Origin: Amphibalanus amphitrite
Taxonomy: Eukaryota; Arthropoda; Thecostraca; Balanomorpha; Balanidae
Direction of reading: 5' to 3'
DNA length: 64,000 nt
Assembly (NCBI RefSeq): GCF_019059575.1
Contig: NW_024881973.1
Span: 434,001 to 498,000, forward strand
Shown here: positions 19,987-51,904 of the stretch, piece by piece
Layout: each line of letters begins with the position of its first letter
Position numbering within the stretch: the stretch's first letter is position 1
Position numbers and translations under genes: made by a program
Notes under the pieces: generated by a model
Seen by the model: only the letters and a program-made list of their open reading frames with translations
Databases searched by the model: none
Told to the model about the DNA's origin: nothing

Positions 19987-22171
19987 CTAACTGAATAATT
20001 TGCAATCAGGTTTCTTAAATAACCACCATCAAACATTTGTGATTTTTCATTAGCTCTGCACCGGCGGCAGTCGCGGGTGAAGGTAGGCCAGGACATATGT
20101 ACATGGCCCCATTCTTTACCAGAGAAGTCTGTAATGGGTGAAAAAACGAATATTAACCCGCGCGGGGCTGGGGTCTTCAGCCGAACGCGCGGGGCTGGGG
20201 GGGGGTAAATTTTACCCCCCCTGTTATCTCCCGAACTAATGGTCCGATTTGGAAAATTCAAACGCCAATCGAAAGCTCTCATCACGAACTACTACAAACA
20301 TGTACTTAATTTAAAGTTTGAGGTCAAGGTCAAGGTCAGGTCAAGGGTACAAATTGCAAGTTTCTACAGTATCGGCCTTGCACCGTAGTTGCCGAAGAAT
20401 GGAGTCATGGACTGAGACTGATCGCCCAAAACGTGTTCTTAGGCTACCAAGACAATATTCGTTGCATACAATATCATTTAGAGGTCAAGGTCAAGGTCAG
20501 GTCAGGTCAGGTCAGGTCACCAAAAAACAAAATATAGAAAAGGGCATGTGCGACACATGTTTTATGGGTCATTTTACTCATAGAATTCAATAGGCACACT
20601 CAATAAGTGATATGGAACACCTCTGGATGAATTTCAGGTCGAGGTCAGGTCAAGGTCAGGTCAAGTGAGGTCAAATTTTGAAGTTGGTTGTTAAGGCCTA
20701 AAAAGGTGTCTATCTGATGCAGTTTTTCACGGCGAATCGAATGGTGCTATTTTTGTTTCCGTACGAGGTCTAGAACTTCCAAAAAAGTCATTTTTCAAAA
20801 ATTTTGTGTGTCGTGACGTCATAAAATTTTGAATAACTCCCACATTTTTGAACCGATTCTTCTAAAATTTGGTATGTAGGTGCACATAGACCACTTCTCT
20901 GACATATATTCCGGTTTTTTTCGATAGACTCAAAATTTTGGATTTTATAATGATTTTCCCCAAAAAATCAGTTTTTTGAAAAAAATTGGGCCAAAATCCA
21001 AAATTTTCAAAAAACCGAGATAGCCATTTGATAGACAAAGTAAAATTACGTATAACCTTTTTTTGTTACGTCTTGATTCCTTTAAAAATGAAGATGTTAG
21101 CGGCGTTTGAACTTTTGCCGTTTTTTAGGCGAAAATGGCGAACATGACGTCACTAAAACGTCAATTTCTCAAAAATTTTCCGACGGATTTCGCTCAAATT
21201 TTCAGGGAACGTGTCAAATTGATGTAAGAAAAGGTACTGAAAGTTTGGCGGCGCTGCGCGCCGCCGTTTTTGAGATATCGCAAAAATTCGCGAGGGGGGG
21301 TAAAATTTACCCCCCCAGCCCCGCGCGGGTTAACATTATTATTATCATAAGGCATACCAATCTGGAAAATGATTAAATTAAAGTTGAATAAAGTGATATA
21401 TTCCTGCCACAAGCTAGCTTACGTCCCAAACATATAGCTATTCTGACTTGGATAGACGATAACGGCGCACTTCTCCCAACGACGGGCAACATTATGCGAT
21501 ACTATACATCTTCTAAGAAGCTCAACAACATAATAACTTTTGTTTACAAATGGACAACCTTTTTGTTGAGCACACAGCAAATGATACAAGATGCCTCACC
21601 TTCAATCAAGCCAAAGAGCAGTTGGGCAGACACACACAGTAATGGCGACGCAACACAAAATGGACGCCGGCTCCCGGATGCGGAGGGGGGGGACTCCTTC
21701 TGAAAGCAGCCACAGACTCCTAGGTTGTAACATGCGACGAGGATAGCTATGAGGCACATCCTCATAGCCATCCGAAGCCGCTTACCACGCAAGCTTACCA
21801 GCACGTTTACCAGCTGCAGGCGTTCGTGACAACAAGCGGGGTTGCATGCAAGGTTATCCGTTTAGTAGGTGCCAGCCGGGGCCTCGTCAGCTGAGCTAAT
21901 AGCAAAATGACCTAATTGAGGGACACGCCAAAAACTGGCCGAGAACAAGCCAACGGCGGGTAACACTGTGAGGCTGTGCGTAGTTCATTAACATTGCGCA
22001 AAATTAGGTTCCCGAACATGCTCTCGCTCGTAGGCATTTGTTCCACAAAGGGCATTGTTAACGTGCATGGTTCTGACTACTAATGTCCATATATGTTGTA
22101 ACGAGGTGCAAGGGAGGCACTCGTAAAAAATGCCTAATTTCAAAATTAGCTAGTGAATTTTTTTTACAGTG
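19385..22171. mobile_element. CACTGTAAAAAA element C, copy 4 (-), with a TTAA element inside
   Basis: The left tip reads TACTGTAAAA (one change from CACTGT) at 19,385; the right tip ends ACAGTG at 22,171; the flanks are TA. It is interrupted at 20,157-21,329 by a family E TTAA element. It contains the longest CAA/TTG run (19,915-19,986). Confidence 0.85.
20157..21329. mobile_element. TTAA-type (piggyBac-like) MITE, family E copy 1
   Basis: The flanks are TTAA at 20,153-20,156 and 21,330-21,333; C copy 3 has one TTAA at the same point. The ends are CCCGCGCGGGGCTGGGG, with a TAAATTTTA-type palindrome between G- and C-runs. The left end carries a partial duplication of the tip (CGCGCGGGGCTGGGG occurs twice). 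The interior has AGGTCA runs (20,325-20,345; 20,483-20,520) and TGACGTCA-type sites. It is nearly identical in reverse to 30,177-31,352. Confidence 0.9.
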
Positions 22172-22278
22172 TACCGAATCAAAGTCGTTTCGCCTCATGC
22201 GGCAACACGAAAACCCTACCATGACTAGTCCGATGATGAGTTTCCGACTAGGTGGCGTGTGCGCAGGATTATATTTAA

Positions 22279-23453
22279 CCTTCGCCCCAGTGGGGGGGGG
22301 GGCATATGTTACCACCCTGTCGCGTTTTTTTCGTATAAATAAAAAACCGCGGCGCGTAGCGCCGCGCCGCTTGGGGTAGCTTTTGGTACATCAATTTTGG
22401 ACAATGTGTGAAATTTTTGACCCCAGGTCATGTCAGGTCAGGTCACCAGGTCAAGTTAACTGACCAAGCCTAAAAAAAAGTTTGCAATCATGTCCAGCCT
22501 GCAGTGTTTGTCAGAGAGGTTTCAAACTTGGTGGATTGCATGATGTTATGGGTGCCTACAATTTGTATATCTCGGATTTTTTATATGCGTGACCTAAGGT
22601 CAGGTCAGTGGCGTGACCTTTCCATTATAAGTCAATGGAGAAAAACGAAAATGCCTCTAGATCCGTGTGTACGCATAGGAACAGTCCAAATATTTCAGGA
22701 TAACAATGATTTGGACCACCCGTGACGACCAAGGTGTCTTTTTTGCTGATAGCCTCTTGAAAGGTCATCCGAGGTCATTTGAGGCTACAAACAGTTTTTT
22801 GCCAATAACTCTCGATTGGAAAGAGATAGAACGCTGGGGTTGGCCTCATTGTGTTTGTCTTGCCGAGACGCATCGACTGATATGCAACATGACCTTTTCC
22901 GGTCAGGTCATGACCTTGACCTGAGGTCAAATTTTGAAGTTGACCTTTCAAGGTCAAATTATAGTTCATTCGACGCGTCTCGGCGAGAGGAACACGATTC
23001 TGGCACTATAAATGACCTAGCCTTTTTTAGTCAAAAGTTATTGTCGAAAAACACTTTTCTTAAAAACAGCTATTTTTGGAGTTTTTGCCCTCTGGAGGCT
23101 AAACCGTTGAACTGAGGTCATTTTTGATAATGACCTTATCAAAAGAAGAGTTCAAAAGCTATCGATTGCTTTTCCCAGCGTTTTTCTAGCTATCATAGTT
23201 CCTGAGATAATGGCATGTTTTCTGAAAAATATAATGACAATTCGCAAATTTTGACCTTTGATGACCTCTGGTGACCCCAATATTGCTCTAAGATGAAAAA
23301 TGACTGAATACTTTCAAACGTACGCATCAAGAGCTATCGACTGCTTTTTACCGCGTCTTTCTAGCTCTCTTAGTTTTTGAGTTAGAGGTGGGTGGTAACA
23401 TATGCCCCCCCTCACTAGGGCGAAGTTGGCGGAGACCGCCACTGGGGCGCGGG
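22279..23453. mobile_element. TTAA-type (piggyBac-like) MITE, family VI
   Basis: The flanks are TTAA at 22,275-22,278 and 23,454-23,457. The ends are CCTTCGCCCCAGTGGGG and the complement of CCCGCGCCCCAGTGG. The left hairpin has a GGCATATGTTACC core. It holds the CCATTATAAGTCAATGG block at about 22,621 and many AGGTCA/TGACC motifs. It is non-coding and lies in element N's own sequence. Confidence 0.85.
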
Positions 23454-23559
23454 TTAAAGCACGTGCAGGGCGGTGCCTCATTAGCCGACATAATAATGAT
23501 ATGACACGATAATGAAACACGCATGTAACTAGCATGCAACAAGCTTCTGGCGGATTTAA

Positions 23560-24746
23560 CCCGCGCCCGGCTGGGGGTCCTGGATTTCCACGCCCTGCTG
23601 GGGGGGGGGGGTGTTTGAACACCCCCCCTTGTAACTCGGCTCCTGGGCCACGTAGCGATACGCGGAAGGCGGCGTTCGAAAGAGCGTCAAAAATAATGAC
23701 GAAATCACTTCGGTCAATTTTTGGGTCAGGTCAAAGGTCAGGTCACCAGAGGTCATTGAAGGCAAAATTTCGCCGATTTCCAGGTTGAATGTCGAAAATT
23801 TCCAAGAAGCCGACGCATAACTCGAGAACCAATAGAGCTACAGCGCCGCGGAAAAGCGCATTCGATAGCCCTATTAAAGCCCTTTCTGAGTAATTCTCTC
23901 CGATTTGACCTAACGTCAACGGTTTTGCCTGCAGGGGGCAAAAACTGCAAAAATAGCCGATTTTTTCGGAAACAGTTTTTCTGCAATAACTTTTGACCCA
24001 AGCATTGTACGAGCTTACTTTTACCGGCATTGTGTTCCTCTCGTCAAGACGCATCGAATGAACTATAAGTTGACCTTGAAAGGTCAACTTGAAAATTTGA
24101 CCTCAGGTCAAGGTCATGACCTGACCGGAAAGGGTCATGTTGCATATCAGTCGATCCGTATCGTCGAGCTGAACACATCTAAGGCGTTTTCATCGCTCTA
24201 GCATGCCTCTATCAAAAGTTATTTGCGAAAAACTGTTAGATACCATTCGTGACCTAAGATGACCTCAGGGCATAAACAAGGGTCACGGACACCATTTTCA
24301 TGTTCAGTGTGTCTAAACCACTTGTAATTCGGTGTTTGGGAGTGTTTATAATGTCTTTTGTCCAAAAGAGGCGCATTTCAATTTTCTCCCATTGACTTAT
24401 AATGGGGAGGTCGCAAAATTGACCTGACCTTAGGTCATCGATATCAAAATTCTGAGATATACATTTTGTACATGCTATTGCTCTTAGCAATCGCTGAAAG
24501 TTTCAAAGCGATCGGTCACTCGGTGTAGCTATGACAGACATTGAAACTTTTTATGAGGTGAGGTCACTTCAAGTGACCTGGTGACCTGACCTTGAATGAC
24601 CTTGGTCTGAAATTTTCACAACATATGTAGAATTGATGTATGATAAGGTGTACCAAAAACGGCGGCGCTCCGCGCCGCCGTTTTTGAGATATTTGCGAAA
24701 AACCACAAGGGGGGGTGTTCAAACACCCCCCCCAGCAGGGCGCGGG
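23560..24746. mobile_element. TTAA-type (piggyBac-like) MITE, family V copy 1
   Basis: The flanks are TTAA at 23,556-23,559 and 24,747-24,750. Each end has a GTGTTTGAACAC-type palindrome between G- and C-runs, and a GGCGGCGC/GCGCCGCC hairpin lies near the right end (24,660-24,680). A perfect direct AGGTCA-A-AGGTCA pair lies at about 23,719-23,731. It is the same family as 28,197-29,378 in reverse. Confidence 0.9.
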
Positions 24747-24910
24747 TTAATTATGAGACTATGCGTAGTTTTCCGACACAGCGCGAAATCTGTTGATAAG
24801 CAGGAAGGGGTGTTAGGGAAGCATTTAAGTTATTAGGTTACCGTTTGTAACCAATTGTTTCACGAGGCCACTCTTTAACTAACAACTCTCAGGCTGATAA
24901 TGTCCCTATA

Positions 24911-26271: not shown

Positions 26272-27017
26272 TATGATTGAACTCTTCCTGAATGAATTCA
26301 TCGCTGCAGATTCTTAGCGCTCTGAGAAAGAAACCGATAACTATTCCGCTTTTCGTCCTTTGACTGTGTGCTGAGTAAAAGTGCACATAATCCTCTTTGT
26401 CGGTTTTCTGTGGACTTTGAATTTGAAGCCTGAGGCTGATTTTACGATGCATGTATCTAAAAACGCCATCTTTTCTTCTTGTTCTTCTTCAACCGTAAAT
26501 TGTATGTTTGGATGAACAGCATTCAGTTTGTTCAGCGTTTCAGAAATGTCAGTTTCTTTCGGAATGATTGCTAGTACGTCGTCTACGTATCTAAGCCAAG
26601 TAGAGTCGTCACCAATAATTTTGAGAAAATGCTCTTCTTCGAGTACTTCCATAAAAAGACATGCTGCTACTGGGCTTAATGGGGACCCCATTGCAAGCCC
26701 ACTGTGTTGGACGTATTCATTTCCTTTGTATGAAAAGCAGTTGAATTTCATGCATATTTTGACAAGTTCTAGGTAGTCGTTTTTCGGAAGAGGTAGTTCG
26801 TCGTCGGCCATGCGTTCGACTACTTTTCCTATCGCCTCTAATGCATCGTCAACTGGGACGTTTGTGAATAAAGACTTAATGTCAAAACTTGCTACTTTTT
26901 TGTCACTTACGTCTGTCACTTCACTAATTTTGTCCACCATCTCCGACGTGTTCTTGATGTGGGTGTCGCTTATGGAACCAAGAGATCTAGAAAGAGGTTT
27001 GGCTAGCACTTTGGATA
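26272..27017 (-). mobile_element. Penelope-like element, minus copy: reverse transcriptase part
   Basis: The minus reading at 26,341-27,009 (222 codons) shows Penelope-like reverse transcriptase motifs in order: SFDIKSLFTNVPVDDAL, GLAMGSPLSP and the catalytic RYVDDVLAI. The copy continues beyond element N at 10,580-10,807. At its right edge it meets a second copy in opposite orientation. The shared part of the two copies appears identical in translation over more than 130 residues, so the duplication is recent. Confidence 0.9.
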
Positions 27018-27709
27018 GGAAAAGTAGTCGAACGCATGGCCGACGACGAACTACATACCTCTTCCGAAAAACGACTACCTAGAACTTGTCAAAATATGCA
27101 TGAAATTCAACTGCTTTTCATACAAAGGAAATGAATACGTCCAACACAGTGGGCTTGCAATGGGGTCCCCATTAAGCCCAGTAGCAGCATGTCTTTTTAT
27201 GGAAGTACTCGAAGAAGAACATTTTCTCAAAATTATTGGTGACGACTCTACTTGGCTTAGATACGTAGACGACGTACTAGCAATCATTCCGAAAGAAACT
27301 GACATTTCTGAAACGCTGAACAAACTGAATGCTGTTCATCCAAACATACAATTTACGGTTGAAGAAGAACAAGAAGAAAAGATGGCGTTTTTAGATACAT
27401 GCATCGTAAAATCAGCCTCAGGCTTCAAATTCAAAGTCCACAGAAAACCGACAAACAAAGAGGATTATGTGCACTTTTACTCAGCACACAGTCAAAGGAC
27501 GAAAAGCGGAATAGTTATCGGTTTCTTTCTCAGAGCGCTAAGAATCTACAGCGATGAATTCATTCTGAAAGAGGTCAATCATATTTATACTTCGTTCGAA
27601 AAAAAAAAAACTGAAATATCCCAGAGGATTTTTAATCAAACAAAAAGAAAAAGCCGAAAAAATCAAAAATCGAAGAAACGAACAAAACAGAAGATACGAA
27701 CAAGAAACG
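27018..27709 (+). mobile_element. Penelope-like element, plus copy: reverse transcriptase part
   Basis: The plus reading 27,100-27,710 has the same GLAMGSPLSP and RYVDDVLAI motifs, then a basic Lys/Arg-rich linker. It lacks the upstream SFDIKSLFTNV box, so this copy is 5'-truncated at the head-to-head junction. It is cut at 27,709 by the satellite-bearing element L and resumes at 39,683 with the linker and endonuclease. Confidence 0.9.
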
Positions 27710-28040
27710 CGTTATGCGCCAGGCGCGGCCATAGCGCGGGACGCGACGCCAGCGCCGCCTATCGGCAACGCCAGAGAACTAAGGTCGGTGAGAGCACGGA
27801 TTTTGATGAGTGATAGCGCAGTGTGAAAAAATAGGAAATTTGCATGAAAATGTCGCTATACAGGGTGTTCCGAAAAAAAGTGTCACAGTTTCAAACGTGT
27901 ATTATAAACGCTTGACAAGTATTAACGCATTAAAACATACACCATATGAAAGCTCACGTTTGTCGTTTTTCAACAAGGTTACTCTCGTATCAGTGCTATA
28001 ACTCCTTGCCAGAGGGCAGAGGAGTTCCTGCGATCACAAG

Positions 28041-28196
28041 TTTACGCGAACTTCTTGTAGTTCACGTTCTCGATATGGGCACCACCGCGGTTGAACACGC
28101 CTTGATTCTGGCCTGGAAACTCTCAGCGACTTTCGTCAGAGTCTCGGGACCGACTTGATGCAGGTATCTTTCGACGTTCTGCTTAACCCGCGCCCT
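28041..28196 (-). pseudogene. mariner-like transposase, C-terminal part (same gene, other side of the insertions)
   Basis: The minus reading continues the transposase after the TTAA: KQNVERYLHQVGPETL, then a Gln/Arg-rich stretch. A further single-base shift near the GTGTTCAACC segment leads to RGGAHIENVN before TAA at 28,041-28,043; the RGGAHIE-like tail is usual for this transposase group. Across the TTAA the codons stay in frame with the part ending at 35,382, which supports precise insertion of the intervening elements into one gene. Confidence 0.85.
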
Positions 28197-29378
28197 GCTG
28201 GGGGGGGGGGTGTTTGAACACCCCCCCCCCTTGTGGTTTTTCGCGAATATCTCAAAAACGGCGGCGCGGAGCGCCGCCGTTTTTGGTACAACTTATCATA
28301 CATCAATTCTACACATGTTGTGAAAATTTCAGACCAAGGTCATTCAAGGTCAGGTCACCAGGTCACTTGAAGTGACCTCACCTCATAAAAAGTTTCAATG
28401 TCTGTCATAGCTACACCGAGTGACCGATCGCTTTGAAACTTTCAGCGATTGCTAAGAGCAATAGCATGTACAAAATGTATATCTCAGAATTTTGATATCG
28501 ATGACCTAAGGTCAGGTCAATTTTGCGACCTCCCCATTATAAGTCAATGGGAGAAAATTGAAATGCGCCTCTTTTGGATGAAAGACATTATAAACACTCC
28601 CAAACACCGAATTACAAGTGGTTTAGACACACTGAGCATGAAAATGGTGTCCGTGACCCTTGTTTATGCCCTGAGGTCATCTTAGGTCACGAATGGTATC
28701 TAACAGTTTTTCGCGAATAACTTTTGATAGAGGCATGCTAGAGCGATGAAAACGCCTTAGATGTGTTCAGCTCGACGATACGGATCGACTGATATGCAAC
28801 ATGACCCTTTCCGGTCAGGTCATGACCTTGACCTGAGGTCAAATTTTCAAGTTGACCTTTCAAGGTCAAGTTATAGTTCATTCGATGCGTCTTGACGAGA
28901 GGAACACGATGCCGGTAAAAGTAAGCTCGTACAGGGCTTGGGTCAAAAGTTATTGCAGAAAAACTGTTTCCGAAAAAATCGGCTATTTTTGCAGTTTTTG
29001 CCCCCTGCAGGCAAAACCGTTGACGCTAGGTCAAATCTGAGAGAATTACTCAGAAAGAGCGTTAATAGGGCTATCGAATGCGCTTTTCCGCGGCGCTGTA
29101 GCTCTATTGGTTCCCGAGTTATGCGTTGGCTTCTTGGAAATTTTCGCCATTCGACCTGGAAATCGGCGAAATTTTGCCTTCAATGACCTCTGGTGACCTG
29201 ACCTTTGACCTGACCAAAAAAATGACCGAAGTGATTTCGTCATTATTTTCGACGCTCTTTCGAACGCCGCCTTCCGCGTATCGCTACGTGGCCCAGGAGC
29301 CGAGTTACAAGGGGGGTGTTCAAACACCCCCCCCCCCCAGCAGGGCGTGGAAATCCAGGACCCCCAGCCGGGCGCGGG
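28197..29378. mobile_element. TTAA-type (piggyBac-like) MITE, family V copy 2
   Basis: The flanks are TTAA at 28,193-28,196 and 29,379-29,382; the right one is shared with the next element. It is a reversed near-identical copy of 23,560-24,746, with GTGTTTGAACAC-type end hairpins and the GGCGGCGC hairpin. The CCATTATAAGTCAATGG block lies near 28,535. It is non-coding. Confidence 0.9.
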
Positions 29379-30176
29379 TTAACCCTCGCCCATGTAGGGG
29401 GGGGTTGGTGCAACCCCCCCCCCTGAGGTTTTTCGGAAATAGTGCAAAAACGGCGGCGCGCAGCGCCGCCAAATTTTGGGTACCTTATGGGGCAAACCTT
29501 GCGCATCTTTTGATAAAAAAAATTTGACCGGGTCATGTCAGGTCACGGAGTTATGACGTCACAAAGGGAACAGCCTCCGGCCGGATTTTCACAAACTGAG
29601 TGCCAACGCCCGAGGTTTCCTGCCGGTGGTACGGACATCGGTTGATGGATCATGATGAAACTTCCCATGCATATTGGGGCAAGTATTGGCTATCATATGG
29701 TATAAGAAACTTGACCGGGTCAGGTCAGGTCACGGAGCTATGACGTCACAAGAGGAACAGCGTCCGGTACTATTTTTGAAAAGGGCCCGAACCACTATTT
29801 TGCTAATTCTTGTCACCTCAATGGGAATATGCAGCAATATTAGCTTCTATAGGGAGCAAATGGACCTCCCAAATCCAAAAATAGAATCAGATTTCAAAAA
29901 TTTAAATTTTGATTTTTCGAATTTCTGCCGCCGACTGTGACCTTGCCGACTTCCGGCGCTCCCAACGCGCCATTTTTAGAGCTAGGGAAACGAAATACGG
30001 GTGCAGTTATTTTTTTACATCTTAGTTTTTGTTTACGCGTTTTTAGACGTTTCTCGGCGCACTGTTGTTGAAGTTATACAGGCCTATTTTACAGCTATTT
30101 TTGATTCACAAAACTGCTGCAATTTTTAGAACTTTTTTTTGCATATTTACATTTTGATGGAATTGGAATGCATTAA

Positions 30177-31352
30177 CCCGCGCGGGGCTGGGGGGGGGGA
30201 AATTTTACCCCCCCTCGCGAATTTTTGCGATATCTCAAAAACGGCGGCGCGCAGCGCCGCCAAACTTTCAGTACCTTTTCTTACATCAATTTTACACGTT
30301 CCCTGAAAATTTGAGCGAAATCCGTCGGAAAATTTTTTGAGAAATTGACGTTTTAGTGACGTCATGTTCGCCATTTTCGCCTCAAAAACGGCAAAAGTTC
30401 AAACGCCGCTAACATCTTCATTTTTAAAGGAATCAAGACGTAACAAAAAAGGTTATACGCAATTTTACTTTGTCTATCAAATGGCTATCTCGGTTTTTTG
30501 AAAATTTTGGATTTTGGCCTAAATTTTTTTCAAAAAACTGATTTTTTGGGGAAAATCATTATAAAATCCAAAATTTTGAGTCTATCGAAAAAACCGGAAT
30601 ATATGTCAGAGAGGTGGTCTATGTGCACCTACATACCAAATTTTAGAAGAATCGGTTAAAAAATGTGGGAGTTATTCAAAATTTTATGACGTCACGACAC
30701 ACAAAATTTTTGAAAAATGACTTTTTTGGAAGTTCTAGACCTCGTACGGAAACAAAAATAGCACCATTCGATTCGCCGTGAAAAACTGCATCAGATAGAC
30801 ACCTTTTTAGGCCTTAACAACCAACTTCAAAATTTGACCTCACTTGACCTGACCTTGACCTGACCTCGACCTGAAATTCATCCAGAGGTGGTCCATATCA
30901 CTTATTGAGTGTGCCTATTGAATTCTATGAGTAAAATGACCCATAAAACATGTGTCGCACATGCCCTTTTCTATATTTTGTTTTTTGGTGACCTGACCTG
31001 GCCTGACCTGACCTTGACCTTGACCTCTGAATAATATGGTATGCAACGAATATTGTCTTGGTAGCCTAAGAACACGTTTTGGGCGATCAGTCTCAGTCCG
31101 TGACTTCATTCTTCGGCAACTACGGTGCAAGGCCGATACTGTAGAAACTTGCAATTTGTACCCTTGACCTGACCTTGACCTTGACCTCAAACATTAAATT
31201 AAGTACATGTTTTTAGTAGTTCGTGATGAGAGCTTTCGATTGGCGTTTGAATTTTCCAAATCGGACCATTAGTTTGGGAGTTAACAGGGGGGGTAAAATT
31301 TACCCCCCCCCCAGCCCCGCGCGTTCGGCTGGAGACCCCAGCCCCGCGCGGG
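30177..31352. mobile_element. TTAA-type (piggyBac-like) MITE, family E copy 2
   Basis: The flanks are TTAA at 30,173-30,176 and 31,353-31,356. It is a reversed copy of 20,157-21,329, including the same partially duplicated tip, here at the right end. The GGCGGCGC/GCGCCGCC hairpin lies at about 30,243-30,259, with TGACCT runs at 30,836-30,870 and 30,990-31,025. It is non-coding. Confidence 0.9.
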
Positions 31353-31356
31353 TTAA

Positions 31357-34300
31357 CAGATTTTTATTCTTAAATCTTGAATGCCAATATAATATCAATG
31401 TGAATCGAGCCACGCTCATAGCGAAATATTACGAATCAATGATAATAACAGTAATCGGCAGAAAATATGTAGTTACCGCGATTGTACAAGATAATACTAT
31501 ACGTTCCGCGTGAAATTGACAGGAGATACCACAAGAATAATAGCCAGAAATAATATTGAAATAACTGAAAGCTCATAATACCCGCTTAGCACTGTCAACG
31601 CTGACCATTTTCTTCGAACATTAAATGCTTACCATACCATAACATCTGAAGATAATGAACTTGAACCTCGAAAAGCGAGTTGTCCAGTTTCAGTCTCAGT
31701 TTGTGCGGTACTGGGATACATTCATTATCAGTGAATCAAATAAAAATTGTCCGGGGCATCATGCTGTGATTATATGAACCAGTTAATATGTATAAAATCT
31801 ATAAAATCTAGTTATTGGCCAAACGTAACGGCCACGGACCGTATAGGTTGACGACCCCGAAATTTAGCGAAATGAAGTATAGGTTCAAGCAGTTTAAATA
31901 ATGCTGGTGCGTGGAGTTGAATAGTGATGTAAATGTGGCCACAGTCTACAAACACGATAACAAATATCGATTGCGCTTCGCTCAACCAGAGCCATGCTCG
32001 TTCTTGCTCATGAAGCAGTGCATCCCTATAAAATGGAAAGTCTGAACGAATGCATTCAGGTTCCTATAATCACCTTATATTGAGATCCGTTTCTTAACAG
32101 GAACACAAACGCGGCCCGTCAATTCGTCAGTACTAAGGCAACAGCGTCTGACAAGTGACAACGCATCAAATGGCCAACTTCTGAGTGCTGACACTATCTA
32201 CCAATACGGTAACGGTAATAAAATTGCATTGCAAAATGCAAATAAAATTGCACGATTTCCAAGCGCAGCTTGAAACCAAATGCGACCAGCTAGTGTCATT
32301 TTCACAACCAAGTGCGACCAGTTAGTGTCTCGAGAGTCGAGACACATTCCAACTGCATAGGTACCGCAGTAACCCATTAGGGGCGAAAGGAAACACATGA
32401 CTTGTGTACGACCAGCGTTCTGTCAGCGTACGACGCATAAAGCAAACTGCTCAAACAACTGCGGTCCCGAACAACACAACACAGAGCTCCGAAACGAATG
32501 GTTTACAAAAGTCTACGACTGACGACATCGAAACAGTACGTTCATCGGGACTAGTCACATGACTCGCTCAGCCCAGCTGGGTTAGGAGTACTAATTGCGC
32601 TTCAAATTGACCTCTGACAGCCATTTACTTACGCTAGTTTGATGCATAAAACTGTACATTGAAACTCAAGCAGCAGCACATAGGTCTCCATCAAGGTGGT
32701 TATATACAACAGAGCACCTCGCTAAAACGAGCGCGAGCCGCACTGTCACACTGACAGTTAACACTGAGCCGCGAGTCGTGACAGTTGCACTGCGTCATAT
32801 GCACGCAGATTTCGCACTCACGGCACCGTTGCTGGCACCGGCCCCCGCCGAAGTTAGTTGGTAGCACTGCTGCTCCACGGCGTACATTTCCTACCAGCCC
32901 ATAGGGTTTACATGTTAAATGGCCTGTTTTCGGCGAGCGATATCTCGGTCAACCTTTGAAGGAATCAATGGTTCTTGGTCTCAAATGATAGATCGATGAA
33001 TTTTCTTTCGACAATTCCTCTACCATTTTTCACGAAACCCAGCCGATCTTCTACGGCGTACAGGGTAAAGATTTCTCTGCACGCCAGCACCCGCGATCCG
33101 CCTCTCCGATCGTCGGCGCGCGGTCCGCGGTAGCGCAGTCGGTAGCGTATCGGCCTACGGATCCGAGGGTCGTGAGTTCGAATCCTGGGGGCGCCGCGTG
33201 ATTTTGGCTAGAATTGAATGATGTAGGTTCTTGAATGTTTGCATTATCAATTATTAATAGCTAATTGAATGTATCTGCCCACTAATCGGCCCCTAAAACC
33301 TGTTATTTAAGGAATTTAAGAAATGAATGTCACGTGCGCGTCACGACTGTCAACCATAAGCGCTACCATATTCTAGTTTGAACTAACTTTTTGCTAGTCC
33401 CGACCACATATAGTAGGTTTTCTAGTAGTTATACTAGAAATTCCTACCAAAGTTCGTCCTACCCTTCACTCAATATACCCTGGCTGGCACTGCGCTGCGG
33501 GTGGACACGCGCGGTGCAGTAGCTCCACGGTGTGCGGCTCACCGGAGGGATTACCAGTCTCCGACCGGACAGTCCAGGCGGGAAATGCGGTGTCTTCAAT
33601 CATGACCGCCGTCCCCGTCCCCGCGGAGTGCCGCACGGCGGCGACGCGGCGGCGTCGGATCTTGAGCTGGTGGACACTTGGACTCCTGCCAGAGCTACCA
33701 GCTTCAGCCCTTCAGCATCCTGTCATCAGCAAACTCCAGCAGAGCTCCAATGCAACTGGGAAAATAAAATTTATGCTGTTAAGCTAAATCATGCAAAACA
33801 TTTTCTTGCACAGGATTCTCTTGCGCAGTTCAGCAAAATCTTCTGTGATATCTATGGCCATGAAAAGAGGACTTGATGCCATTGTAAAAAATATAGGTTC
33901 ATTGGTTCTCATTTACCCACATCGAGCTTCTATAGGTACCATTCATTTGTATATCATGAAGTATGTTAACTACACAATATTTATGCAATAGACTGACATG
34001 AAATATGTATAGGAATGGCAAGAGAGATGGGTAAATAAGCCAAATAGGTTGCAGGATTTATTGGCACCAAACAGGTCAGAAAGTAGTTCAAACAATCTTA
34101 CAAACTAGCCACAACCATGTGTGGAGTGTCTGTTGATGTAATACATACAACTACACCAGAGAAAGTCTTTGAATTAGGTACAAAATTATGCCACAGAAAT
34201 AAAAACAATGCAGTTTTGTAGAGCATTACCCAAAAGATAATTGTGATTCAGCCTTGCTCCCATTCTGGGATTGAATAAATACAAATTATGAGGTGAAAGT

Positions 34301-37353: not shown

Positions 37354-37357
37354 TTAA

Positions 37358-39181: not shown

Positions 39182-39682
39182 TACTACGGCAAACAGCATG
39201 ACATCTCGCATATATTGAGACATATTTTGACAATGTAATGTAGGTATAATACAATTTGGAATGTTGTTAAACATTTTATCTTCTCCTGCCAAATCCCGGT
39301 GCCAATTCTCCCCGAATATTGGTAAAAATACGTCAGGGTGAACGTATATTACTGAATTTAATTGCATTATATCGCATTTTTCAGTTTATCGTTAAGTCTC
39401 CACACAGGGACGTTTTCATCTGAAGTTTGCCGCCGGAGCCACCGCGAGGCCTAGTTGCACGAGTAGCCGATAGTCGGCGCCACCGTCGCACTCGGCCGCA
39501 GCCAGTATACTGCCAAAATGGAGCTATTATGATATCGCTCGTTGGTAACTGAGTTTGCCGTGCTTCATAAATGATCGCCGCATAGAGAAACAACCGTTTA
39601 ATGAAGAAAATGACTTATATTTTACTCATAATAACAATCTGAACCCCAATGTCCGCTTCTATATGGAGTTTGGCGCATAACG

Positions 39683-41971: not shown

Positions 41972-42020
41972 TTAAGAGGATAAGCTTTTGTGCCTGATGC
42001 ATTTTATTTCGAGTTGTTAA

Positions 42021-43020
42021 CCCGCGCACCGACGGGGGGGGCGGATATCCGCCCCCCCTGAGGTTTTTCGCGAATAGCGGGAAAACCGCGGCGCGTAGCG
42101 CCGCGAAATTTGATATGACTATAACCCCATCAATTTTACACATGGTGTGCAAGTTTGAACCTCCTACCTTTTAAGGTCAGGTCACCAGGTCACTTTGAAT
42201 GACCCAACCTCAAGTCACTTTTTTGCAAATTTGTCACCGTGCCACAGCTACAGTAGATGTCGGAGGCCTTTGAAAGTCGCAGGATATTATTAGGTCATTA
42301 GTAGCTACAATTTATTTATCTCGGAATTTTGATATCGGTGACCTAAGGTCAGGTCAATTTCGCGACCTCCCCATTATAAGTCAATGGGGGAAAAATCAAC
42401 TCCCTGTTTTTACCACTAAAACGGGTCGGAATGGCCCCATATACTTAACATGACTTCATATACGATCAACCTTCACTACCTTGAGGTCTGTTTTGCTGTT
42501 GGGCAGCTGTGAGGTCATGTGACGTCATCAAAGGTCACCAAAGGTTTTTGGCCAATAACTCCGTACAGGAACAAGATACAGCCGCGTGGATGGTCTCATT
42601 GTGTTCAGCTCGTCAAGACGCATCGAATGATATACATGATGACCTCGAGATCACGTGACCTGAGGGCAACCTTTGACCTTGACCTTTTGAGGTCAACATA
42701 TATATCATTCGATGCGGATTGACGAGAGGATCACGATGATGCCCTTAGTTTGTTCCTATCTTGACTAATTCGAAAGTTATTCGAGAAAAACTCTCTCCAT
42801 ATCTAGCGCCGCCATTTTGACTTTTTCGACCCCTGTGACGTCATCTTTGACCTGACCTGAAAATGACCTAGTAAAAATTGTAGATCTTGGCCGTGCGTAT
42901 CCGATGCCGTTTACCGCTTGTCGCTATCTTGCTTCGTTCTCGAGATCTCAGGGGGGGGGGCGGTCATCCGCCCCCCCCCCGTCGGTGCGAAGTTGGCGCA
43001 GACACCCGTCGGTGCGCGGG
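42021..43020. mobile_element. TTAA-type (piggyBac-like) MITE, family I copy 2
   Basis: The flanks are TTAA at 42,017-42,020 and 43,021-43,024. It matches 4,643-5,633 end to end in the same direction. It additionally keeps the complete CGGCGCGTAGCGCCG hairpin at about 42,090, part of which is missing from copy 1. Confidence 0.9.
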
Positions 43021-43024
43021 TTAA

Positions 43025-43646: not shown

Positions 43647-43650
43647 TTAA

Positions 43651-44839
43651 CCCGGCAGGCGGTGGGCCTACCAGCCACCTTCCGCGCGGTGGGGTGGGGG
43701 GCATTTTTTGCCCCCCCCCCGTATCTCCGAAACTACTGGGCGGATCCGGAAAATTCAAACGGCGTTCGATAGCCCTGTCAAATTTGTCAAGAGAAACCAA
43801 ATTCCATTGACCTCGGGGTCACCGATGACGTCACAGGTCAGGTCAAAGATAAAATGTTTTACCGTTCACGGGGCTTCTAGGGAAAGCGCTATAACACCGA
43901 GTAAAACGCATTTTGTCGAAAATCAGCGATAAGGCGTCAGTTGTCTAGTGCATATGTTGCTATTAGAGGTCACTGGTCATGCCAGGTCAGGTCACAGGTC
44001 AGGTCACCAAAGGTCACCAAGGGTCACCACATGAGCCCAGCTTTACTAAGGTTATGCGATGCATGTTTTATGGCCAGTTTTTCATTTCCAACTCAATGGT
44101 GTTGGTTATACGGCCATCAGGTACGGTTTAGGTCACTTTCTGGTGGAGGTCAGGTCAAGGTCAGTTCAAAAAAGGTCAAATTTCAAAGTTGATATTTTGC
44201 ATAAAATGGGTATCGATTCGATGCAGCTCGTCACGGGGAGTCTAATGGTGGTCTTGGTTTTGCGTTACGAGGTCTAGAATTGCTAAAAATGAGTTTAAAA
44301 ATTTGAGGTCATCAATTTTGAACAGTTTTTTCGCTATAACATGGCCAAAAAAAGAGGTATCGATTTTAAATTTGGTATGTAGATAGAAGGCGGTAGGGAC
44401 TATCACATATATTCCGTTTTTCGAAATTCAATTTTTTTTTTGGAATTTTTGGCTATTATATTCAAAAAATCTATTTTTTTTATTTTTGGGGGTCAAAATC
44501 CAAACATTTCCAAAAACCGAAATAGCAGTTTTGTAGCCCTATTGATCCCACACCTCTTATGTCGAAACATTTTTCTGTATCTCTAAAGCTGTAGGCCTGA
44601 CAGCTCTTCCCGCGAAACCTTTTTTTGGGGTCGAAAATGGCAAAAATGACGTCATTCTGACGTCATTAGCGGCCAACCTATCATAGCCTTTGGAAAAAAT
44701 TTTGGTCACCATGTGCGCTAGCTGCTCCCGGGAGGGTACTGAAAGTTTGGTGACGATCGGCGCAGCGGTTCTCGAGATATATTGAAAAAAAACTAGAGAG
44801 GGGGGGGGGGCAAAAAAATGCCCCCCACCGCCTGGAAGG
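43651..44839. mobile_element. TTAA-type (piggyBac-like) MITE, family VII
   Basis: The flanks are TTAA at 43,647-43,650 and 44,840-44,843. The ends are CCCGGCAGGCGGTGGG and CCCACCGCCTGGAAGG, with a GGGCATTTTTTGCCC-type hairpin at each end. AGGTCA direct repeats lie at 43,985-44,030, and TGACGTCA-type sites at 43,826 and 44,646-44,665. It shares an inner stretch (TTTGGTATGTAG followed by a long A/T-rich part) with family E, so the two are distant relatives. Confidence 0.85.
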
Positions 44840-44929
44840 TTAACAAGATAACTATTTTCGAAAAACATAACCGACTCAGGTCTCCAGGAAGAAGGATAGC
44901 CTTATATGCATACCTGTCTTTGTTTTCAG

Positions 44930-45124: not shown

Positions 45125-45231
45125 GTGAGGGTCGGAGACACGCAAGTCTCCTGACTTTTTTATTTTAGTCGCATGGCGCTAATTACTACCATGATTCACA
45201 ACATGATGAACCGTAAAGTGAGGCTTTTTAA

Positions 45232-45819
45232 CCCACCAGCCGCTGGGGGGCATAAAGTTGCCCCCCCCCTTTACGTTTTGTGAAATATCTCCGAAACCTG
45301 ATGAGCTACGAACGTGAAACTTGGCATAGCTTCAAATGAATACCTAGGCAATGTTTGAGGAAAGTTTGGTGGTTGTAGCACCTAAGATGACGTCACAGTG
45401 ACGTCATAAAGTTTTGTCGTTTTCCGATATGGACCGTTTCTGATGACGCTGAGCATGAAACTCGACTGTAAATGAACTACAGCACCTGCTGTCATCCTAA
45501 AACATCTTACTACACTTCCATCTAGTTTCTGACCAATAATCGGCCCTTTATATTTGGTCCCATATATGATGTATCGTGAGGAATATGAGAGTCGCAAATC
45601 TATAATTTCACTTATGACGTCACTGTGACGTCATTTCAAATGGGATCGACACCAAATTTGGACACAACCTCGGCTAGGTATTCAGGAAGATGTGTGCAAA
45701 GTTTCGCTTCTCTATCTCTTCGCGTTGCGACGATATCGTCGCAGAAGTAAAGGAGGGCAACTTTATGCCCCCCCCCCCCAGCGGCCGGCGGGTGGCGCGG
45801 AGGCCCAGCGGCCGCCGGG
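45232..45819. mobile_element. TTAA-type (piggyBac-like) MITE, family VIII (short)
   Basis: The flanks are TTAA at 45,228-45,231 and 45,820-45,823. The ends are CCCACCAGCCGCTGGGG and CAGCGGCCGCCGGG, with a GGCATAAAGTTGCC-type hairpin. At 588 bp it is about half the length of the others. It lacks AGGTCA arrays but has paired TGACGTCA-type sites (45,389-45,406 and 45,615-45,634). It inserted about 100 bases downstream of the KEN exon. Confidence 0.85.
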
Positions 45820-45823
45820 TTAA

Positions 45824-46127: not shown

Positions 46128-46197
46128 TGTTAGGGAGTGTTTATAATGGCTTTCGTGCAAAAACAGCGCCTTTCAATTTTCGCCCATTGACTTTTAA

Positions 46198-47353
46198 CTC
46201 GCGCCCCAGTGTCAGTCTGGATTTTCCACGACCTGGTGTGTGTGGGGGGGGGGTGTTTGAACACCCCCCTTCTAACTCGGCTCCTGGGCCACGTAGCGAC
46301 ATGCGGTAAGCGGCAATCGAAAGAACGTCAAAAAATAAGGACGAAAACACTTCGGCCATTTTTTGGGTCAGGTCAAAGGTCAGGTCACCAGAGGTCACCA
46401 AATGTAAAATGTTGACTATTTCAACATTTTGGAAACTGCAAACGGCTATCTCGGGAATCGATAGAGCTACAGCGCCGCGGAAAAGCGCATTCGATAGCCC
46501 TTTTACAGACCTTTCTGAATAATGCTTTCAGATTTGACCTCAGGTCAACGGTTTAGCCTCCAGAGGGCAAAAACTCCAAAAATAGCCGTTTTTACGAAAA
46601 TCGGTTTTTCGGCGATAACTTTTGACTCAAAAGAGCCATGACATTACTTTTGCCAGCATCGTGTTCCTCTTGTCGACACGCGTCGAATGAACTATAATTT
46701 GACCTTGAAAGGTCAACTTCAAAATTTGACCTCAGGTCAAGGTCATGACCTGACCGGAAAAGGTCATGTTGCATATCAGTCGATCCGCAACGTCGAGCCG
46801 AACACATCTAAGGCGTTTTTAGCGCACTAGCACGCCTCTATCAGAAGTTATTAGCAAAAAACTGCTAGATTCTGTTCGTGACCTGATATGACCTCGGGGA
46901 CATAACGAGGGGTCACAGTTGCCATTTTCCGGTTCAGTGTGTCAATTCTACCTACATCTCGATGTTTGAGAGTGTCTAGAAAAGCGTTCGTGCAAAACAG
47001 ACGCTTTTCAATTTTCTCCCATTGACTTATAATGGAGAGGCCGCAAAATTGACCTGACCTTAGGTCACCGATATCAAAATTCCGAGATATACCATTTATA
47101 GATACTGTTACCCTCATCAATCGCTAAAAGTTTCAAGGTGATCAGTCACTCTGTGTAGCTATGGCAGACATTCAAACTTTTTATGAGGTGAGGTCACTTC
47201 AAGTGACCTGGTGACCTGACCTTTAATGACCTTGGTCTGAAATTTTACAACATGTGTAGAATTGATGTATGATTGGGGAGCGCCGCCGTTTTTGAGATAT
47301 TCGCGAAAAACCGCAAGAGGGGGTGTTCAAACACCCCCACACTTGGGCGCGGG
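46198..47353. mobile_element. TTAA-type (piggyBac-like) MITE, family V copy 3, nested in copy 4
   Basis: The ends are CTCGCGCCCCAGTG and ACTTGGGCGCGGG with GTGTTTGAACAC-type hairpins. TTAA is present on the left (46,194-46,197), but the right flank reads TGGA, so the duplication has decayed or the insertion was irregular. The target lies in the CCATTGACTTATAATGG block of copy 4. Confidence 0.75.
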
Positions 47354-47432
47354 TGGAGAGGACGCAAAATTGACCTGACCTTAGGTCATCGAAATCAAAA
47401 TTTTGAGATATACATGTTTTACATACTATTAC

Positions 47433-47662: not shown

Positions 47663-47933
47663 ATTACTCTTAGCAATCGCTGAAAGTTTCAATGCGATCG
47701 GTCACTCGGTGTAGCTATGGCAGACATTGAAACTTTTTATGAGGTGGGGTCACTTCAAGTGACCTGGTGATCTGACCTTGAATGACCTTGGTCTGAAATT
47801 TTTACATGTGTAGAATTGATGCATGATAAGGTGTGCCAAAAACGGCGGCACTCCGCGCCGCCGTTTTTGAGACATTTACGAAAAACCACAGGGGGGTGTT
47901 AAAACACCCCCCCCCCAGCAGGGCGAGAGTTAA

Positions 47934-48481: not shown

Positions 48482-48831
48482 GTACGACCTCTTCGCCGTT
48501 TCGCCCCTAATGGAGCTAGCGCCTCGCTGAAAAAAAAAACGAGCATGAAAACCATTACGAGACGCAGCGATTGGTACCCGATTACTCAGGTCAATCGGTG
48601 GCTTATGTCAGGTCAAGTGGCATATTAGTCACGTTTTTTGTAAATAACTTCGCAAAATATGGCCACAGAGCTGCGTTTTTTGAATCATCGTGTTCGCCAA
48701 GCTCAGGCGCGTCGAATAGTGTAGGTAGGGGAAGTTGGGGCAATGCCGGAGTTGGGGCAAAGCCGAAATTCGAGATATTTCGAAAACCGTAAGACATGGA
48801 TGCCACCTGTCAGTGATGCTCTGAAGCTTAA

Positions 48832-49772
48832 CCCTAGAACGCCTAGGGGGGGGGGTTGTATCAACCCCCCCCCTGAGGTTTTTCGGAAATAGTGCAAAAA
48901 CGGCGGCGCGCAGCGCCGCCAAATTTTGGGTACCTTATGGGGCAACCTTTGCGCATCTTTTGCCGAAAAAAAATTGATCGGGTCATGTCAGGTCACGGAG
49001 TTATGACGTCATAAGAGGTACAGCCTCCGGCCGGATTTTCACAAACTGAGTGCCAACGCCCGAGGTTTCCTGCCGGTGGTACGGACATCGGTTGATGGAT
49101 CGTGATGAAACTTCCCATGCATGTTGGGGCAAGTATTGGCTATCATATGGTATAAGAAATTTGACCGGGTCAGGTCAGGTCACGGAGCTATGACGTCACA
49201 AGAGGAACAGCGTCCGGTACTATTTTTGAAAAGCGCCCGAACCACTATTTTGCTAATTCTTGTCACCTCAATGGGAATATGCAGCAATATTAGCTTCTAC
49301 AGGGAGCAAATGGACCTCCCAAATCCAAAAATACAATCAGATTTCAAAAATTTAAATTTTGATTTTTCGAATTTCTGCCGCCGACTGTGACCTTGCCGAC
49401 TTCCGGCGCTCCCAACGCGCCATTTTTAGAGCTAGGGAAACGAAATACATACCAAACGATAGAGAATTGATCAAGGAACACGATAGTGAAGGTTTCAAGT
49501 CGATATCTCCCACCGTTTTGCCGCAATCGCCGCCGAAAGTTGAAAAAAGTCTATTTTTCCGAAAATTTGACCTTTGACCGGTCAAAAGTAGGTCAAATGT
49601 TGACCTAGGACCAAAAAATATACCACCAATCGCGAGATCTCGGCGAGAGCAATCCGTTGGTCTTTTCCGCTAAGCTCTACGACCTTCCGTTTCGAAACGC
49701 CAGGGGGGGGGTCGTAACAACCCCCCCCCCCTGGTCGTTCGTGTTATGAGAAATGGCCTGGTCGTGCGAGGG
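48832..49772. mobile_element. TTAA-type (piggyBac-like) MITE, family II copy 4, intact reference copy
   Basis: The flanks are TTAA at 48,828-48,831 and 49,773-49,776. The left end, CCCTAGAACGCC, resembles the published piggyBac tip, which begins CCCTAGAAAG; the right end is GTGCGAGGG. At 941 bp it is the only uninterrupted copy of this pairing of ends, and it shows the empty site (CGAAATAC, 49,440-49,450) used by element H in copy 2. Confidence 0.9.
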
Positions 49773-50250
49773 TTAAGTGACTACAATTATCGCATGTTTG
49801 TTACGAGTCGTCATTCAGAATACTTCGGCTGTGAGGGCGCCAAGAGCGTTTTCGAGGTATGCGTTCCTTCTACTACATGCGCCTTTGAAGCTGCATTTCT
49901 TGCTCATTATCCTACCGTTTGTCTGGCCAATTCGGTCAAGTAATCTTCAGCATGTCTTTGCATAAGTGTGCTGCCTATTTGAAATTTATACGGCACGTTG
50001 AAAAGTTATGGGCCTGCAAATGAAAGTATGGCTGGCTGGGGTAATGCCGAAAACGTGCAATTACGCACGTTAAAGCACGCTACGTGGACTTTACTGCTGT
50101 AGAATAGCAACGCCAATTTTTAGTCACACAAATTACACTTTCAACCGACACAACGGCCTGTTACCTATAAGGAATTATTTACCTGGCATTTTCTTATTAT
50201 ATCACACAATTATAACATCCAGTGTGCACCAAGCGTCCTCAAGCTCTTAA

Positions 50251-51279
50251 CCCTCGCCGGCCGAGGGGGGGGGGCGGGTGCCGCCCCCCCATAGGGTTTT
50301 TTTCGCGATAGCTCCGAACACGCTGGCGATAGAGAGCTGAAACTTGGCATACCTGACCTTTGATCCAAGTCGGATCTTTTGACACCAACCGCATTTTTGG
50401 GTCAGGTCAGGTCACTGACCTATGACGTCATAAGTGAACCTCTGCACGGTCTTCAGATGTCGCAACTTCGCAACGCCCTCACTGCCAGAGGAGATGTCAC
50501 AGGGAAATGAAACTTGCAGGATCTAGTATCCATTATGAGTCCCACAACTTGTATATCTCGGATTTTTCCTAAAGGTCATATGAGGTCAGGTCATTTTCGT
50601 GACCTCACCATTATAAGTCAATGGGGAAAAATGAAAACTGCTATTCTGGCGCCGGGAACGATCTCCAACTATCTCAAGCACACAGAATCGTGATTTGATG
50701 CACTCCTTGCAAGGTTACATGCGTCACTTTTGCAATGTTGACCTTGCGTGACGTCATTTATGACGTCATCAAGGTCATATTAGTTTTTCGTCAATAACTC
50801 TTGATCAAATTGAGCTAGCGAGTCGGGAAAGCCACCAATGGACTCAGGAAGACCTGCCGAATCGAATGATATGCGACATGACCTCTTTCGACCAGCTTCG
50901 TGACCTGGGGGTGCTGACCTGACCTTGACCTGAGGTCAACACCCCAAGTTGACCTGACCCGGACAAAAAGTATATCATTCGACGCGCCTGAGCGAGACGA
51001 ACACGATGCTGCCAAAATCGGCGCTCTGCGGCCGTTTTTTGCGAAGTTATTCACCAAACACTGAACCGTACCTTGGGGCACTTGACCTGACCTCAGAGGT
51101 CACCGGTTGACCTAGGACCTTAAAATCGGGTACCAATCTCTGCGTCTCGTAACGGCGCACACGCTCGTTTTTTCCGCGACGCGCTAGCTCCATCAGGGGC
51201 GAAACGGCGAGGGGGGGGGTCGTACCCGCCCCCCCCCTCGGCCGGCGTGTATGTAGAAAACCAATAGGTCCGGCGAGGG
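50251..51279. mobile_element. TTAA-type (piggyBac-like) MITE, family III copy 3
   Basis: The flanks are TTAA at 50,247-50,250 and 51,280-51,283. The ends are CCCTCGCCGGCCG and GGTCCGGCGAGGG. It is in the same direction as copy 2. It is inserted in element J and is non-coding. Confidence 0.9.
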
Positions 51280-51904
51280 TTAAAACGCTTGTCAGCTTTG
51301 ATAAATTCTGGATAAATTTTGAGATAAAGTGGCAAAACATCAATGTCGGCATTCCCCGTAGATCATTTCTCACATTTTCGGCTTTCCCCGCAGTCCGGGG
51401 CAACGCCGAAAAAATCACTTCTTTGATATTTTTAGTTTGTGCGCTTAACGGTATGCGAATTCATCAAATGCGCCTGGTATGTTTGAAAGGCAAAAGACTG
51501 GCCTCTCGAATGACGCCAACAAGAATAGCTTATGTTGTCTACCTTGCGTGCTACGGGCGGCGTATATTCGGATGCAGTATGAGCAGAGCATGGGTCCCGA
51601 AAAATTCCTCAGAAACTAGAGAAATTCTCGGACACACACGACGGGTACCATATGAATGCGGGTGAGACTAAATGCTTACTTCGAAATTTAAGCTGCGTTG
51701 CGGCATTGGCGATTGTGTGCGGCGTGTATGCCGCATGATTAGTAAGCGGCGACCACTAAATTAAAAACTCAATAGCTTTGACCTGTTTTCAATGGATAAC
51801 ACTGCATACCAAAAATGTCCATCGCTCTCGTCATAGGATATTTAGATTTAAATAACTAACTTATCTACATCATCGTTTTGAACCAAATTAATACTTTCAA
51901 CTTG

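Follow-up and report, generated by a model that had tools for sequence, protein, structure and literature searches.

We analyzed a 64,000-nt stretch of the Amphibalanus amphitrite genome (contig NW_024881973.1, positions 434,001 to 498,000; C476:434001-498000 in our contig numbering; hereafter, the window) and confirmed that it contains a genuine set of elements flanked by TTAA, in which every element with two recognizable ends pairs one short end with one long end. Each end carries a tip beginning with CCC and a palindrome whose outer arms are a G-run and a C-run and whose core is specific to the family. We are highly confident that these are non-autonomous piggyBac elements of the type known from Trichoplusia ni (T. 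ni), moved in trans by transposases of the same genome; how the transposases read the ends, and that ends have been exchanged between elements, we infer from the comparisons presented below.

A prediction made earlier from the sequence alone (hereafter, the original prediction) had described about twenty such elements, in at least nine families, between positions 20153 and 51283. Both numbers proved fair: self-comparison of the window and reading of the ends yielded 17 elements with both ends recognizable plus several fragments, which fall into nine families (I, E, V, II, IIb, C, VI, X, and Y) plus one further short end (693-820). The interval itself holds most of the elements, which occupy 16,142 of its 31,131 bases, but two lie outside it (985-1926 and 4639-5637). 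The modules made of a G-run, a core, and a C-run were found at 34 places in the window (68 strand hits) versus 0 to 2 strand hits in each of 20 dinucleotide-preserving shuffles; the 34 places include some that are not ends, and one of them (61713-61740) looks like a chance match. Specifically, 26 modules follow a TTAACC in the window, versus none in all 20 dinucleotide shuffles, and the exact words TTAACCC and GGGTTAA occur 14 and 15 times, respectively.

Every element pairs one short end with one long end

The original prediction gave both ends one plan (TTAA, CCC, tip, G-run, core, C-run). The plan holds, but the two ends of an element are unlike, and this rule had been missed. The short end consists of TTAA, a tip box of 13-14 bp, and the palindrome, with one box only, whereas the long end consists of TTAA, the box, a spacer, a repeated box, and the palindrome, which is thereby displaced by 27-28 bp. 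Read by hand, 17 of the 17 window elements are short/long. A strict automatic rule applied to the window and the loci fetched from elsewhere in the genome returned 17 convergent pairs (11 in the window and 6 at other loci; VI, Y, II1, IIb1, C2, and V3 were missed), all of them short/long, with no short/short and no long/long pair, at offsets of 26 (1 pair), 27 (12 pairs), and 28 (4 pairs). The distance from TTAA to the G-run showed two peaks, 13-16 bp (39 modules) and 39-45 bp (37 modules), which together account for 76 of the 79 modules lying ≤120 bp from a TTAACC in the fetched loci and window (318.7 kb, a non-random sample).

Next to the long-end palindrome, the box of the short end recurs at an offset of 27 in 12, 28 in 3, and 29 in 2 of the 17 elements, and both elements with the offset of 29 (V3 and C2) have damaged tips. 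This repeated box matches at 8 to 12 of 12 bases across the 17 elements, with p ≤0.02 against shuffled boxes in 16 of them and 0.09 in V3. If ends were paired at random, the probability of an all-short/long set would be 5.6e-5 when counted by element (17) or 0.011 when counted by family (nine); both values serve only as a guide, since motifs just inside the palindromes are common to families, which therefore probably share descent. A weak palindrome in the long-end spacer was considered as a degenerate first unit and dropped, as it reached p = 0.03 only in VI and 0.21-1.0 in the other 16 elements.

The target site was read from empty-site sequence in one element, family E copy 1 (E-1), which has TTAA on each side, versus a single TTAA in three empty copies of the repeat that it entered, demonstrating a 4-bp duplication.

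Transposase-bearing elements carry the same ends

We found at least 116 matches to PF13843 (DDE_Tnp_1_7), many of them stop-free, in the genome searched (807,550,619 bases, 2,644 contigs). Five transposase-bearing elements, in four families, have short and long ends of the kind seen in the window. Two of them carry the tips of window family IIb, with one base differing in one copy: C1173:156154-160130, which has one stop inside the match, and C44:1060842-1064816 (IIbA2), which is out of frame at the C-terminus. The C33 element (447032-451754) and the C702 element (33509-39481) are open over the whole match, the latter with a miniature element (T1) nested inside it, and the C778 element (L049) has one stop inside the match and a decayed short-end TTAA. 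In 5/5 of these elements, the short end lies 5′ and the long end 3′ of the open reading frame (ORF), with a shift of 27. Two further transposase loci, C72 and C757, were set aside because they had no matching end pair within 9 kb. The search for piggyBac transposases with matching tips that the original prediction had proposed thus yielded two elements with IIb ends, and its link to piggyBac is borne out by the TTAA duplication, the CCC tips, the asymmetric ends of T. ni type, and the DDE_Tnp_1_7 ORFs between IIb ends.

No piggyBac coding remnants were found in the window elements (no tblastn match to T. ni piggyBac below an E-value of 12 across the whole window), and the longest stop-free stretch in eight elements was 69-110 codons. 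As no transposase is coded inside them, the window elements are non-autonomous. IIb copy 1 (IIb1) is 96.7% identical to the C44 element over ~390 bp at the short end and 90.8% identical over ~305 bp at the long end, and it looks like a deletion derivative of that element. IIb1 is short and non-coding and carries the ends of an autonomous element (IIbA2), which is what defines a miniature inverted-repeat transposable element (MITE); the other families have only the layout in common with transposase-bearing elements.

When 26 genomic transposases were placed in a tree with T. ni piggyBac (27 sequences), the five ORFs and T. ni piggyBac formed a 100/100 group separate from the remaining 21, which include near-duplicates. 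Long branches were flagged, and exact placement is therefore less sure than the grouping. Identity of these transposases to T. ni piggyBac is only 27-33%. The zinc pattern of the T. ni-type C-terminal zinc domain (CRD) was present in 4/4 of the five ORFs with a readable C-terminus versus 0/21 of the other genomic piggyBac ORFs, 14 of which match a zinc pattern that we take to be piggyBat-like, while 7 match neither pattern. Where ends of the other-group transposases were seen, they had tips such as CCCATTAGTGCC without the G-run palindrome, and several had no ends seen. At one end of an other-group piggyBac (locus L025, 412-450), a perfect palindrome (TGTCCTCATATGAGGACA) lies close to bp 25, and no obvious palindrome is present at the opposite end. 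In the two pairs available, sister transposases have similar cores, namely, TTGTATCAA (IIb) and TTGATGCAA (L049), and CCATTTTGG (C33) and CCAATTTG (C702).

Palindromes and their cores

The G- and C-runs form the outer arms of a palindrome around the family-specific core, and many of these palindromes are long, with arms of 10-15 bp and few or no mismatches. The axis falls at bp 25-30 in 13 of the 18 short ends examined; in the short ends of VI and Y and the long ends of C2 and Y, the palindrome escaped the automatic axis search. Most cores are symmetric, as had been predicted, with that of VI only weakly palindromic. Among ten window short-end cores, the two outermost pairs were complementary in 19/20 cases (shuffle mean 8.0, maximum 17). 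We extended the comparison to 30 short ends, hand-picked one per tip family among the matches listed plus the window and fetched loci, which have 28 distinct cores, and found the two outer pairs complementary in 48/56 cases (shuffle mean 21.3, maximum 37; 20,000 shuffles) and all three outer pairs complementary in 16/28 cores. In two elements, the long-end core equals the short-end core with its center reversed (CCATTTTGG and CCAAAATG in the C33 element; CCGAAACGG and CCGTTTCGG in L039). Center-reversed cores and symmetric outer pairs would suit a two-fold symmetric reading of half-sites. In II, IIb, and C alike, the long-end core differs from the symmetric short-end cores in that its inner half terminates in ACGACCC or GCGACCC.

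A further hairpin inside the palindrome had been predicted for many elements. It is present, but on the short side only (GGCGGCGC-NNN-GCGCCGCC, ~70-95 bp from TTAA), in I copy 2, E, V copies 1 and 2, II, IIb2, and VI, with the form CGCGGCGC..GCGCCGCG, in which both arms are changed, in I and VI. C, X, Y, and IIb1 lack this hairpin, and in I copy 1 and V3 it has been lost or cut.

Ends and interiors have discordant relationships

Comparison of elements across families revealed a discordance between ends and interiors that the earlier reading had missed. II2 and IIb2 differ at 27/48 tip positions and 18/800 interior positions (p = 3.5e-26), whereas five same-family control pairs showed no tip excess (p = 0.51-0.68); IIb1 and IIb2, in turn, differ at 0/49 tip and 67/790 interior positions. 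Between II2 and IIb2, the box of the short end has changed in concert with the inner box of the long end. Along the alignment, the IIb tips of IIb2 give way to ~60 bp identical to II, a stretch in which IIb1 has many differences, and then to a IIb-like block and a II-like center, with IIb-like sites resuming ~20-25 bp inside the long palindrome.

Two other family pairs show a similar picture. I2 and T1 (G000:C702:33975-34969) are 96.8% identical along a 682-bp stretch that reaches the G-run of the long palindrome, beyond which core and tip differ, and E2 and the element at L077 match at 68/97 positions within the first 100 bp and are about 96% identical thereafter. All three pairs (II2/IIb2, I2/T1, and E2/L077) thus combine stretches of 92-98% identity with different ends, and in two of the three, one break falls at a G/C-run. 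Because near-identical stretches carry different ends, end modules seem to have been exchanged between elements.

Elements of the window and their surroundings

The elements are distributed on both strands. Family I comprises copy 1 (4639-5637, plus strand; core CGGATATCCG), with the short end on the left and the long end on the right, and copy 2 (I2; 42017-43024, plus), the partner of T1 described above. Family E comprises E-1 (20153-21333, minus; core TAAATTTTA), long on the left and short on the right, and copy 2 (E2; 30173-31356, plus). Family VI (22275-23457, plus) is short on the left and long on the right. In family V, copy 1 (23556-24750, minus; core TGTTTGAACA) is long on the left and short on the right; copy 2 (28183-29382, plus) is short on the left; V3 (46193-47357, minus) is an old V-related copy; and a V fragment including the short end lies at 47663-47933 (minus). 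Family II comprises copy 1 (29379-35381, plus), short on the left and long on the right, and copy 2 (36407-37357, minus; core TTGGTGCAA), long on the left and short on the right. IIb copy 1 (985-1926, minus) has its short end on the right and a decayed TTAA on both sides, and IIb copy 2 (48828-49776, plus) is a mosaic with IIb ends and a mostly family-II-like interior. Family C comprises copy 1 (37354-38398, minus; core CGGGTGCCG), long on the left and short on the right, copy 2 (C2; 40946-41975, plus), with a damaged short tip, and copy 3 (50247-51283, plus), short on the left and long on the right. X (43647-44843, minus) is long on the left and short on the right, and Y (45228-45823, plus) is short on the left and long on the right.

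The short end of the tenth family (693-820, minus; core TCGGATGGA; profile E-value 5.9e-18) has TTCA in place of TTAA; the remainder of this element extends beyond the start of the window, and an identical tip and core with TTAA was found elsewhere in the genome. Together with V3, IIb1, and C2, it represents the old copies with decayed TTAA or tips. A decayed long end lies at 51905-52026 (plus; profile E-value 3.8e-11). At 6375-6421, there is a possible long end (TTAACCCACGAACAGGTGC...) without a G-run (profile E-value 0.045), and a similar end occurs at G000:C44:1067467.

Two pairs of neighbors share a single TTAA: V copy 2 with II copy 1 (29379-29382) and II copy 2 with C copy 1 (37354-37357). 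A preference for the TTAA flanks of other elements was considered and not retained, as two shared sites among the 233 TTAA of the window are compatible with chance by a rough estimate. The tandem of V copy 2 and II copy 1 (28183-35381) interrupts a Tc1-like gene. The frame shifts close to the end of the long ORF, and in the frame after this shift, as judged by visual inspection, the protein sequence continues across one TTAA. This Tc1-like ORF (35382-36406, minus), which is cut by two pairs of TTAA elements, has a DUF4817 helix-turn-helix and a weak DDE_3 match below the cut-off. II copy 1 is itself split by a ~5-kb insert at about 29999-35043 with an 8-bp flanking repeat (CGAAATAC) and ends GGGTGC(A/G)GTTATTT; the insert, which contains E copy 2, is probably another kind of DNA transposon. 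Elsewhere, the region 11892-22174 consists of nested repeat segments, direct and inverted and mostly 91-99% alike, E-1 being inserted in one copy, and retroelement fragments lie at 6978-8171, 26344-27810, and 1856-2290 (DUF1758 protease and reverse transcriptases, one of them in an inverted duplicate); the repeats look like those of an animal host.

Ends across the genome

Genome-wide, the short-end pattern gave 17,008 and the long-end pattern 21,410 forward-strand matches, versus 0/0 and 2/0, respectively, for reversed-pattern controls. Reverse-strand counts (49,908 and 70,311) were not used, as one site was counted at several lengths; if the strands are alike, we estimate ~34,000 short ends, with the elements making up perhaps 4% of the genome. 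Among the matches listed for contig C1, 6 of 7 reverse short ends have a long end of the same family ~1 kb away. Beyond this genome, no locus with a strong full-length profile match was found in viral or genome contigs (best E-value 1.5e-4), and the pattern matches in viral contigs (14 stretches) and genome contigs (10 stretches), having weak profile matches, were treated as chance.

Discussion

The asymmetric short/long layout of piggyBac is already known. T. ni piggyBac (IFP2) has 13-bp terminal and 19-bp subterminal repeats, separated by a spacer of 3 bp (5′ end) or 31 bp (3′ end) (PMC2532691). The 19-bp repeat is palindromic, is centered near bp 25, and is bound by a CRD dimer; the right end contains an insertion and a duplicated box, such that bp 34-63 resemble left-end bp 7-35 and the palindrome shift between LE35 and RE63 is 28; and the asymmetry of the ends is called a puzzling arrangement and an enigmatic feature (PMC7351741). 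As far as these sources describe IFP2, our elements share with it the TTAA target, the CCC tip, the 13-bp tip repeat, the near and far placement of a palindromic internal repeat, the box duplication at the far end, the CRD zinc pattern, and the placement of the ORF between a 5′ short end and a 3′ long end. They differ in having G/C-run half-sites around a family-specific core and a shift of mostly 27 versus 28, and the window elements are short and non-coding, with many families side by side. The original prediction considered the double hairpin unusual for piggyBac; it is preceded, however, by the T. ni internal repeats and by human MER85, in which transposase binding depends chiefly on a 16-bp palindrome located 3 bp inside the tip (PMC3459987). 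Because its position and asymmetry are those of the T. ni layout, the double hairpin is most likely a CRD dimer site, that is, the known piggyBac internal repeat in a G/C-rich form, and not a new device.

Other relatives resemble the barnacle elements in part. The primate MER85/PGBD3 elements are likewise short, non-coding, and derived from piggyBac, and they have a palindrome located 3 bp inside the tip repeat but, as described, are 140 bp long with a single palindrome, near the 5′ end only (PMC3459987). piggyBat of Myotis lucifugus has a piggyBac-type transposase and units of box plus palindrome at an end but, in the published account, its own CRD fold and three units at one end, with no such palindrome at the other (PMC11707139). 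CsuPLE1.1 of Chilo suppressalis shares 13-bp tips and asymmetrically placed subterminal inverted repeats but codes its own transposase, and G/C-runs are not mentioned in the portion of the report drawn on (PMC4273485). The coral CMITEs, which are piggyBac-type MITEs, share TTAA, CC(C/T)T tips, and differing tip repeats on shared interiors; they are about 100 bp long, and the part of that report available to us describes neither the palindrome nor a short/long rule (PMC2872659). What is new here is the G/C-run palindromes, the many families with changing symmetric cores, the one-short-one-long arrangement in every pair examined, and the discordance between ends and interiors.

By analogy with solved piggyBac complexes, the catalytic core would read the tip box, and a dimer of the CRD would read the palindrome. 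The short end would then represent one box/palindrome unit, while the long end would supply a second dimer position, and a short/long pair would be needed for synapsis. The family-specific box and core may together act as an address that chooses the transposase. Co-resident elements may swap end modules by recombination or repair-template switching, sometimes at G/C-runs, with homopolymer runs offering short identity for the exchange, and such swaps would let an interior change its transposase. We lean somewhat toward a broader proposal in which the tip box and G/C-run palindrome form an exchangeable address cassette, moved by recombination partly at homopolymer runs, and in which this exchange, with drift of the core alongside the CRD, would have given rise to dozens of families in one genome, all under a one-short-one-long rule comparable to the 12/23 rule. 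Coral CMITEs were the only near precedent that we found for such exchange in the literature excerpts covered, which does not prove its absence in print.

Several observations weigh against this interpretation or parts of it. The loci outside the window were picked around transposase hits or short ends and are thus non-random, with several near-duplicates. The five transposase-bearing elements are not all intact (one stop each in C1173 and C778, and a C-terminus out of frame in C44), and no transposase-bearing partner for I, E, V, II, C, VI, X, or Y was found among the loci fetched with flanks, a minority of the 116, so the mobilizer of these families is inferred. The VI core is poorly symmetric; in II, IIb, and C, symmetry is weaker in the long-end than in the short-end cores; and palindrome axes vary by 2-3 bp between intact copies of the same family, which fits strict phasing poorly unless the runs slip after insertion or the variation is sequencing error. 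As regards exchange, II2 and IIb2 also differ ~20-25 bp inside the long palindrome, so the break is not confined to the runs; on the short side, the initial 300 bp of I2 are unlike those of T1; and the E2/L077 break lies ~95 bp inside, with the long end of L077 not seen. The between-family pairs V1/VI, I2/V1, I2/VI, and E1/X have no significant tip excess (p = 0.24-1.0), and that of V1/V3 is weak (p = 0.0075), indicating that end exchange is not universal.

Discordant ends could also arise if ends diverged fast by point mutation, selected by a changing transposase, with no exchange. Coral CMITE interiors are likewise more conserved than the ends, the cause being left open in the part of the report covered (PMC2872659), but we consider this explanation unlikely here: against the 27/48 tip versus 18/800 interior differences of II2/IIb2, same-family copies of similar interior divergence keep near-identical tips, IIb1/IIb2 tips are unchanged (0/49) beside 67/790 interior differences, the breaks are sharp, and IIb2 alternates between IIb-like and II-like blocks. 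It is also quite unlikely, in our judgment, that the short/long asymmetry is an inheritance from one ancestor, irrelevant to movement now. The motifs common inside the palindromes do make shared descent probable; however, tips and cores have changed greatly while the spacing (26-28) and the one-of-each arrangement persisted, and with the native T. ni transposase, vectors built with a pair of left ends show no activity and those with a pair of right ends are excised but not integrated, a restriction that a hyperactive transposase relaxes, according to the sections of PMC7351741 consulted.

Of the roles suggested in the original prediction, transposase choice is favored by the data, whereas folding and G-quadruplex formation are not. 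A role of the palindromes as folded DNA (hairpin, cruciform, or G-quadruplex) rather than as a protein dimer site would agree with the many 10-15-bp arms with few or no mismatches, and a preprint notes, in the part drawn on, the hairpin-forming potential of such repeats in human piggyBac-like elements (PMC12324416). Yet the position and asymmetry of the palindrome match the known CRD site, the CRD type tracks the presence of these ends in the loci examined, an intramolecular quadruplex would need more than the single G-run that a short end has on each strand, and transposase binding to equivalent palindromes is reported for T. ni piggyBac (PMC7351741) and MER85 (PMC3459987), which makes folded DNA a very unlikely explanation. 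TTAA duplication by itself is not decisive as to superfamily, but the chance that another TTAA-duplicating group such as Kolobok is involved is close to nil. Membership in Kolobok was rejected because its ends are given as 5′-RR (PMC9587614, as far as that source was covered) versus CCC here, and the partner transposases encode DDE_Tnp_1_7 and group with T. ni piggyBac.

That many families keep the layout while tip and core change is natural evidence that the constraint acts on layout and not on sequence. Together with the four transposase-bearing families, the many tip/core pairs provide a panel for examining how piggyBac CRDs choose their sites, one that is perhaps useful for orthogonal gene-delivery vectors. 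If true, end exchange would explain MITE families with common interiors but different ends, a question left open for corals in the material covered (PMC2872659), and would mean that one interior can come under different transposases.

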